Assembly (NCBI RefSeq): GCF_014199215.1 | Contig: NZ_JACIJC010000003.1 | Location: 496,001 to 560,000 of the forward strand | From: Sphingobium boeckii | Lineage (GTDB): Bacteria > Pseudomonadota > Alphaproteobacteria > Sphingomonadales > Sphingomonadaceae | Length of the DNA stretch: 64,000 nt | Reading direction: 5' to 3' | Shown: piece by piece, positions 26,456 through 28,675 of the stretch | Layout: every line of letters starts with the position of its first letter | Numbering within the stretch: position 1 is the first letter of the stretch | Made by a program: the position numbers and the translations under genes | The notes under the pieces: generated by a model | Told to the model about the DNA's origin: nothing | The model's database searches: none | Seen by the model: the letters and a program-made list of their open reading frames with translations, nothing else

Positions 26456-28675
26456 TTACTTGCCGGCCGCGGCCTGCACGATTCTAGCCCATGCGGCCTC
26501 ATCAATCACGTCGATCCCCAGATCGGTCGCCTTTTTCAGCTTTGATCCAGCACCCGGACCGGCCACGACCAGATCGGTTTTAGCCGATACCGATCCGGCG
26601 GTCTTCGCGCCCAGCGCCTCCGCCTGTGCCTTGGCCTCGTCGCGGCTCATCGTCTCCAGGCTGCCGGTAAACACCACGGTTTTGCCGCTCACCGCCGAAG
26701 CGCGGGTTTCGTGGACCAGATCCGCAGGCGTGAGCTGCCCCAGCAGATCGGCGACCGCATCCGCATTGTGCGGCTCCGCGAAGAAATCGACGAGCGCCAG
26801 CGCTACCTCCGGCCCCACGCCCGGCGTCTCGATGATCGCCGCCAGTTCCTTGGCCTCACGCGCGAGGCTTTTGTCCGCGCTCTCGCCCACCGCGGGCACG
26901 AACACGGCGCGCGCCGCCAGCGCCCGATCGATCACCGCACGAAAGACATCCCAACTCCGATAACGCCGAGCCAGATCCCGCGCGGTCACCTCACCCACAT
27001 GCCGGATCCCCAAAGCAAACAGGAAGCGATCCAGCGAGGGCGTGCGCCGCGCGTCGATCGCCGCAATCAGATTGGCCGCCGAAATCTCCGCCCAGCGTTC
27101 GCGCGCCAGCAAAGTCTCTTTGGTCAGCCTGAAGATGTCGGCGGGCGCGGCGATCAGGCCGTCACGAAAGAAGCTCTCGACATTGGTGATGCCCAGGCCT
27201 TCGATGTCCAGCGCATGACGGCTGGCGAAATGGCGCAGGCGCTCCACCCGCTGTGCCGGGCAGATCAGCCCGCCGGTGCACCGGTAATCCACCTCGCCCG
27301 GCTCGCGTTCGGCGGCGGACCCACATTCGGGGCAGGTTTCGGGAAAGGGAAAGGGCGGACGATCCGCGTCGCGCGTCAGATTTTCAACGATCTGCGGGAT
27401 CACGTCACCCGCGCGCTGGATCACCACCCGGTCTCCCGCCCGCGCACCCAGACGCACCACTTCGTCCGCATTGTGCAGCGTCGCGTTGGTGACGACCACC
27501 CCGCCCACCGAGACCGGCTCCAGCCGCGCCACGGGTGTCAGTTTGCCAGTCCGCCCCACCTGGATATCGATCGCACGGATCAGCGTCTGCGCGCGTTCGG
27601 CCGGAAATTTATGCGCGATCGCCCAGCGCGGTGCCTTGGCCACGAACCCCAGCCGCTGCTGCCAGTCGAGCCGGTCCACCTTATAGACCACGCCATCGAT
27701 ATCGAACGGCAGATCCGCCCGCTTCGCCTCGATATCGCGATATTGCGCCAGCGCGGCTTCCACCCCATCGGCGGGGATCAGCATTTCGCTCACCGGCACG
27801 CCCCAGCGCTCGATCGCCTTCATGACGTCAAATTGCGTTTCGCCGGGAATTTCAGATACTTCGCCCCAGCCATGCGCTAAAAACCGCAACGGCCGCGCCG
27901 CCGTCACGCTGGCATCCTTCTGCCGGAGCGATCCAGCGGCGGCATTGCGCGGATTGGCGAATTGCCGCGCCTTGCCCGGATCATCCGCCTCGGCCAGCAG
28001 CCGCGCATTGAGCGCTGCGAAATCGGCCTTGGACATATAGACCTCGCCGCGAATTTCGAAGACGTCTGGAACATCAGGAATGCGATCATCGCCATTTCCG
28101 TTTGCGTCCAGCGCCGTCGAGGCACGTTCCGGTTGTATCCCCCCGTCCCTCGACTTCGCTCGGGACAGAAGGAGTTGATCTGGAATATCGCCAATGGTCT
28201 TCACATTTGCGGTCACATCCTCGCCGGTCGCGCCGTCGCCGCGGGTCGCGGCCTGCACCAGCACGCCCTTTTCATAGCGCAAGGAGCAGGAGAGTCCGTC
28301 AATCTTGGGTTCAGCGGTCAGAGCCAGCGCCTCGCCGTCACCCAGCTTCAGGAACCGCCGCACCCGCGCGCCGAATTCGGCGATGTCTTCGTCCGCAAAG
28401 CCGTTTTCCAGGCTGAGCATCGCACGCGCATGGGTGACCTTGCCGAGATGCCCCGCAGGCGCGGCCCCCACTTTCACATTGGGGGAATCCGCGCGCACCA
28501 GATGGGGGAAAGCAGCCTCGAGCGCGCTGTTACGCCGGATCAGCGCGTCGTAATCCGCGTCCGAAATTTCCGGCGAATCATCGGTATGGTAAAGCGCATT
28601 ATGCCGCGCGATCTCCGCGGCAAGATACGCCAATTCTTCCGCAGCGGCGGCTTCGGTGTCGGGCAGTGCGCTCAT
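26456..28675 (-). CDS. ligA: NAD-dependent DNA ligase
   Basis: 739 residues. Adenylation domain with catalytic Lys124 in [14 protein letters not shown] (144-148) and EVYM (211-214). An OB fold follows, then a Cys4 zinc motif ([13 protein letters not shown]), HhH repeats and a C-terminal BRCT domain (about 660-739). Between residues about 168 and 205 there is a segment ([19 protein letters not shown]) not expected for LigA, matching an in-frame copy of palindromic repeat family C (28106-28166). The rest looks intact and the gene is probably functional. It closes the bamD-recN-ligA strand run. Confidence 0.93.
28106..28166. repeat. Palindromic repeat family C, copy inside ligA
   Basis: The right arm CGTCCCTCGACTTCGCTCGG plus GAC (28144-28166) matches the right arm of C2 (44759-44780). 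The left arm GTCCAGCGCCGTCGAGGCACG (28106-28126) is a degenerate version of GTCCCGAGCGCAGTCGAGGG plus ACG in C1. It adds about 20 codons without breaking the ligA frame. Confidence 0.75.

Follow-up and report, generated by a model that had tools for sequence, protein, structure and literature searches.

Palindromic repeats in frame within a LigA loop of Sphingobium boeckii and related genomes

Rickettsia and Wolbachia are known to carry palindromic elements in frame inside genes (PMC2229807, PMC3767692, PMC4224334, PMC10969869). The available portions of these sources describe several families that sit within conserved genes without disrupting the reading frame and are read as short peptides, and insertion hotspots for RPE-4, RPE-6 and RPE-7 are raised in the R. 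japonica paper as one possibility (PMC3767692, PMC2229807, PMC4224334). A second group, the CGTC- and GTAG-tagged REPs, consists of dispersed palindromes, many of them inverted dimers and some inside genes. The available text on this group reports intragenic REPs in many bacteria, including S. alaskensis and E. litoralis, with many in DNA repair genes, a REP inside the DNA ligase of O. terrae, and REPs at about the same site in recB of two Xanthomonas species (PMC3733652). MITEs with coding capacity (ERIC, NEMIS, RU) are described in the accessible passages as non-autonomous repeats of small size whose open frames are joined to genes in frame (PMC2229807, PMC10969869).

The repeats analyzed here share with the Rickettsia elements the placement of a palindrome in frame inside conserved protein genes, which in Sphingobium boeckii are ligA, murD, hrpB, putA and mtaB. 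As far as the available text describes them, RPE are ~100-150 bp long and belong to Rickettsia, whereas the sphingomonad inserts are ~60-150 nt in genomes of 2-7 Mb and comprise several unrelated families that recur at one loop in more than 20 genomes. The original prediction had likened the ligA element to the Rickettsia elements and presented it as new outside that group. The likeness holds for in-frame palindromes, and the novelty does not, because the available text of PMC3733652 already includes intragenic palindromes of sphingomonads. That text does not describe a single loop hit many times by different families of CGTC/GTAG REPs, and the open-licence papers searched yielded no case of unrelated palindrome families captured recurrently at a single loop. 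A search of the same literature by title and start of abstract returned no palindromes in sphingomonad LigA or MurD, and the arm strings of the family found in S. boeckii (family C) had no match in the open-licence literature searched.

A family C palindrome inside S. boeckii ligA

The window, the whole 64,000-nucleotide stretch of S. boeckii DNA that was analyzed, contains ligA at 26456..28675 on the minus strand. This 739-aa open reading frame is identified as NAD-dependent DNA ligase by NCBIfam models PRK07956 (806 bits) and TIGR00575 (735 bits). LigA is matched once in the S. boeckii genome (n = 1), and the altered ligA is thus the sole copy found. Like murD, ligA is normally essential in bacteria.

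A family C palindrome sharing an arm with the repeat at 44714-44786 had been predicted inside ligA at 28106-28166. The 20-nt arm TCCCTCGACTTCGCTCGGGA is present exactly at 28146-28165 and at 44760-44779 of the window, which holds five matches with up to three mismatches compared with 0.01 expected. A 19-nt arm with up to two mismatches has 198 matches in the whole genome, and its reversed control has none. A covariance model, R1, was built from an alignment of 19 other family C copies with the ligA copy left out. R1 matches the ligA copy end to end (positions 1-74 of 74) with 42.9 bits and E = 5.5e-10 by a rough calibration. The arm counts against expectation and control, together with this E value, rule out a chance match and confirm that a full-length dispersed palindrome of ~74 bp sits in frame in S. 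boeckii ligA. The element is where it was predicted and is longer, because R1 and the codon positions extend it to 75 bp at 28098..28172 on the minus strand. R1 also detects family C elements outside ligA at 41063..41135 (94.9 bits) and 44714..44786 (83.4 bits), both given without strand.

The two arms of the ligA copy are preserved to different degrees, as had been predicted. In gene orientation, the 5' arm (28144..28172, minus strand) agrees with the consensus at 27 of 29 positions and carries the exact 20-nt match, and the 3' arm (28098..28126, minus strand) is degenerate and ends in an intact CAAACGG. As single-stranded DNA, the ligA copy folds with -17 kcal/mol (z -2.5) and the copy at 44714-44786 with -32 kcal/mol (z -8.8).

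The 739-aa frame stays open across the element. The first base of the element is the third base of the Leu168 codon, and the element encodes residues 169-193 in frame. The whole extra loop covers residues 169-200 (28076..28171, minus strand) and folds with z -1.4. An in-frame gain of about 20 residues had been proposed; the frame is right and the size is too small, because the extra stretch is 32 aa, 25 of them from the element. The LigA sequences of four congeners align to S. boeckii LigA as two segments (residues 3/5-168 and 201-735/737) that are separated by two residues. For E. coli LigA (2owo), the aligned segments are residues 13-167 and 201-579, and the separation is four residues. The insert therefore replaces a 2-4 residue turn of these relatives, and the gap is as clean as the original prediction anticipated. 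AlphaFold2 places residues 173-195 as coil with pLDDT < 50 between well-predicted elements with pLDDT near 90, in line with the predicted loop. The model has a pTM of 0.44, making its domain arrangement unreliable, and residues 68-74 and 345-358 likewise have pLDDT < 50. The insert would be translated and harmless. These results support the reading of the ligA element as a captured palindromic repeat.

Family C elsewhere in the S. boeckii genome

Family C was examined at 107 sites, consisting of 83 full elements (from 150 scored of 1964 candidates) and 24 single arms (among 100 of the 198 listed matches). At least five of the 107 are in-frame captures, in ligA, murD, hrpB, putA and mtaB, and the expectation that the arms would recur inside other coding frames of the genome was borne out. 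Captures were called by a codon-usage test and inspection, and the gene families were confirmed by NCBIfam. With an upstream value of 0.01, murD did not pass the automatic codon cutoff; it was recognized by eye, then by NCBIfam. Two reading frames of the element are in use, one giving SRAKSRD-like peptides (ligA, murD) and the other PFVPSEVEG-like peptides (hrpB, putA, mtaB). The putA copy fills a stretch between two enzyme domains and represents little net insertion compared with 3haz. Family C has open frames at a fraction of 0.81 compared with 0.67 in shuffles. Five further element-spanning open reading frames (L222, L244, L272, L212 and L239) were judged by eye to be antisense or spurious, L222 after passing the codon test.

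The flanks of the 83 full copies are A-rich, and no shared target was found among these copies. Family C has terminal inverted repeats, as MITEs do, with 27 base pairs in 74 positions (alignment A1, model R1). It differs from MITEs in having no target-site duplication: 74 of the 83 copies are without a flanking direct repeat, compared with 77 expected. The Y1 transposase (PF01797) has no match in the S. boeckii genome and matches 5 of 14 control genomes, which rules out RAYT-driven spread in this genome. The copies were probably mobile in the recent past. Family C also departs from the CGTC REP shape, taken from the available text of PMC3733652 as an 8-9 bp stem and a 4-5 nt loop after a CGTC tag; a single family C arm forms a 5 bp stem with a 12 nt loop (z -0.2).

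The window holds other repeats. A second family, TGTCATTCCCGCG..., is present at 35589-35614, 42329-42354 and 52294-52319, and its copy at 42326-42356 fits the published CGTC REP shape with an 8 bp stem and a 4 nt loop. Three pairs at 11037-11140, 47818-47915 and 58936-59038 are CTGAGCCTGTCGAAG-like and belong to a family captured in the LigA of other species. At 61830-63709 there are three direct repeats of ~286 nt, spaced by ~800 nt and with 67-72% similarity to the middle one.

The LigA loop across Sphingomonadales

The order was taken to be Sphingomonadales from the names of relatives. A 76-aa LigA probe matched 391 of its 396 genomes, 21 of the 391 in two pieces. Thirty genomes were fetched for reading (20 split genomes besides S. 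boeckii, G331 and nine more), and 29 were readable. The loop is at least 20 aa long in 21 of these 29, and with S. boeckii at least 22 of the 391 genomes carry a long insert. This number is a lower bound, because reading covered ~75 of the 391 loops (29 of 30 at loci L120-L149, 29 from the fetched set of 30 genomes, 16 more and the window) and the others were judged by their unsplit match. All 22 genomes belong to the family of the window, which has 313 matched genomes, and none of the 78 matched genomes in other families of the order is split. Among the 223 matching genomes of the class outside the order, G451 alone is split by an insert, and this insert is palindromic too. Its ligA (L320) has a loop of ~16 residues, and the hairpin GAGCGGCGAAGGCCGCTC overlaps native-like codons, as if by local inverted copying. 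One genome, G495, has two LigA copies.

LigA was parsed at 142 of 144 loci. The 142-row set for loop lengths was not deduplicated, and L137 (short loop, without the motif), L146 and L169 were dropped; L107 was excluded from the structure alignment because of a stop in its reference. Loops of 2-8 aa are present in 112 rows, one loop has 11 aa, 29 have 20-45 aa, and none has 12-19 aa, a gap that rules out ordinary loop-length variation. All 29 long loops are palindromic repeats by eye. Their DNA folds with z ≤ -2.5 in 27 of the 29, and in a second run in 26 of 29 compared with 3 of 174 windows from the same genes. The two that fold poorly, S. boeckii and L173 (z -1.1), are decayed family C copies. 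The capture originally predicted for S. boeckii is thus real and is not a single case, but one of many at the same LigA loop. Distant sphingomonads might have carried a segment there with no repeat similarity; among the loops read, the long ones are palindromic repeats, mostly of other families. Among the long loops, 13 of 29 have Ile ahead of the downstream Pro, as do 10 of 113 short ones, counts that are not corrected for relatedness, and duplication of the upstream DIP codons is a possible source.

The LigA inserts (families and INDEPENDENCE) were sorted into at least six families, with L150, a half copy, added to the 29 long ones. Assignment was by eye from peptide and DNA. Family C (SRAKSRD...STSLDANG) accounts for 7 rows, F2 (CTGAGCCTGTCGAAG) for 3, F3 (CCCCTCCCCTTTAGGGGAGGGG) for 7 including L150, F4 (CCCCTCCTC...) for 4, F5 (CCCTCTCCCC) for 2, and F6, a mixed set (CCGGCGAAGGCCGG and the like), for 7. 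The family C insert of L170 seems to have a palindrome-like stretch, CCTGAGCCTGCCGAGG, nested in it in frame. At a second LigA site, near window residues 594-606, a family C-like RAQSRD...STSLDTNG or parts of it are present in L153, L158, L168, L170 and L174.

The same loop has been occupied in unrelated lineages and by unrelated families. A FastTree phylogeny was computed with the loop columns removed from 140 LigA rows, the parsed set with three near-identical rows out and the window in; 44 of its 137 inner branches are open forks, loci L040-L119 were the top-ranked 80 among 529 relatives, and most inserted rows were picked because they were split. On this tree, presence (30 rows) and absence of an insert require at least 20 changes, and the families require at least 26. 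Neighboring rows carry unlike families (L108 F3 and L109 F6; L166 F4 and L167 F5; L155 F6 and L156 F3), and L171 has F3 amid four family C rows. These sister rows argue against one or a few ancient ligA insertions that spread by gene exchange between species and later diverged or were lost. Loop sequences also differ within a family, and most short-loop relatives retain a 2-4 residue loop like that of the outgroups. An ancient origin would account for the identical junctions within families described below and for the four g3 genomes, which probably share one family C insert; as a general explanation it is doubtful.

Copy numbers of C, F2 and F3/F4 were compared across 29 genomes, and these insert families prove to be dispersed repeats in many carriers. 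Family C arms have 184 matches in the S. boeckii genome and 62 in the genome of L077, and the control has none in all 29. The six carriers richest in F3/F4 have 122, 86, 60, 39, 39 and 21 matches, and four other carriers have 3-5 (control 0-1). The three carriers of F2 have 103, 89 and 60 matches (control 0-8 in the whole set). For F3/F4 (p = 0.006) and F2 (p = 0.019), carriers exceed the other genomes searched in copies of the inserted family, without correction for relatedness. Counting against copy-driven capture, family C carriers have no copy excess (p = 0.32), because the g3 carriers have just 1-4 family C matches, and F2 is abundant in the non-carriers L077 (184 matches) and G386 (120). 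The g3 genomes G147 and G224 have one family C arm match each, and judged by these counts their ligA insert may be a fossil that has outlived its family. Counts of 12-mers in 20-40 kb stretches, a small sample, gave 0-5 places per genome, often not above the shuffles or the ligA control.

The MurD loop, junctions and the origin of the inserts

A probe from the flanks of S. boeckii MurD matched 147 of 149 genomes of the family, 15 of them twice. A palindrome-filled loop is present at one place of MurD in at least 10 of the 147 genomes (S. boeckii, G001, G667, G658, G276, G693, G347, G139, G649 and G683), with z from -3.9 to -9.9. All ten are among the 15 genomes matched twice, 13 of which were resolved (all but G243 and G645). 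The congener G001 has an F6-like element where S. boeckii has family C. MurD of G692 and G237 have long loops resembling half elements (z -0.9 and -1.0), and G700, also matched twice, has no MurD insert. Of 48 parsed MurD segments, 27 have the usual length and none of these reaches z -2.5. Of the nine segments that are 62-69 aa long, eight stay above z -2.5 and one reaches it, and longer loops therefore have other origins too. Unlike LigA, MurD has intermediate loop lengths.

Recurrence in two enzymes regarded as essential could mean that the palindromes in these loops are under selection for some function, for example ligase tuning or ligA mRNA stability, and the available text of PMC3733652 argues that REPs in DNA repair genes exceed chance. 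Most relatives do without the insert, sequences and families vary freely, and the hairpins decay, as in the S. boeckii ligA copy, which together make selection for function very improbable.

The explanation that we consider probable is frequent copying of palindromes combined with survival in tolerant loops of enzymes, which creates protein sequence. Short palindromic repeats would be copied to new places in sphingomonad genomes by machinery that was not found here, and most landings inside genes would be purged. A few surface loops of normally indispensable enzymes would tolerate 20-45 extra disordered residues, the candidates being the adenylation-domain loop of LigA after DIPxxL and a MurD loop that directly precedes the ADPL motif. 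In-frame copies free of stops would survive in these loops and be translated. The hairpin of a captured copy would then decay, and trimming or loss may follow. The recurrence would reflect the tolerance of the loop rather than a DNA target. The weak folding of the S. boeckii and L173 loops, the non-palindromic longer MurD loops and the small net insertion in putA count against this explanation.

The junctions bear on tolerance directly. Counted from where the Leu codon ends, the start of the left arm is nucleotide-identical in 7 of 7 family C rows, 5 of 6 F3 rows tested, 3 of 3 F2 rows, 2 of 2 F5 rows and 4 of 7 F6 rows, although some rows with the same junction share an origin (the four g3 family C rows). 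In C, F2, F3, F5 and most of F6, the element or its arm begins between about -1 and +5 nt relative to the Leu codon end, and true element ends are known for family C only. This precision counts against tolerance alone, because tolerance would let the junctions scatter over the loop. It fits a model in which the LigA and MurD loops are DNA-level landing sites, where a site-preferring, hairpin-dependent process inserts unrelated palindromes just after the LigA Leu codon, and the murD family C copy joins as CT|CCGTTTG, like the ligA copy. The 83 family C copies have neither a shared target nor a target duplication, the junction is ACA or CCA in hrpB, putA and mtaB so that only murD has the CT|CCG of ligA, and the F4 offsets vary (14, 23, 23 and 26). 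We regard landing at a DNA-level site as unlikely. A broader proposal is comparably speculative: one hairpin-dependent process working without a Y1 transposase might place unrelated palindromes at the same bond of ligA and murD, swapping them between sister species so that the loops are continually rewritten. With junctions that are identical to the nucleotide, the mechanism by which palindromes without a transposase are copied becomes testable.

The LigA and MurD inserts indicate that spreading repeats are a source of new protein segments, repeatedly, far from Rickettsia and in enzymes thought to be indispensable. The same loop is empty, fresh, decayed or possibly half-deleted in related species, and this offers a natural series in which palindrome insertion, hairpin decay and the tolerance of a folded enzyme for foreign sequence can be studied. 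The half copies and some short, odd ligA loops suggest that inserts may later be trimmed. The loops of L150 (SPSPEEEGLYE), L159 (VAPAT) and L099 (KGAGLF) look like remnants of F3, F6 and F4, respectively, and from their sequences these short loops are possible deletion scars.
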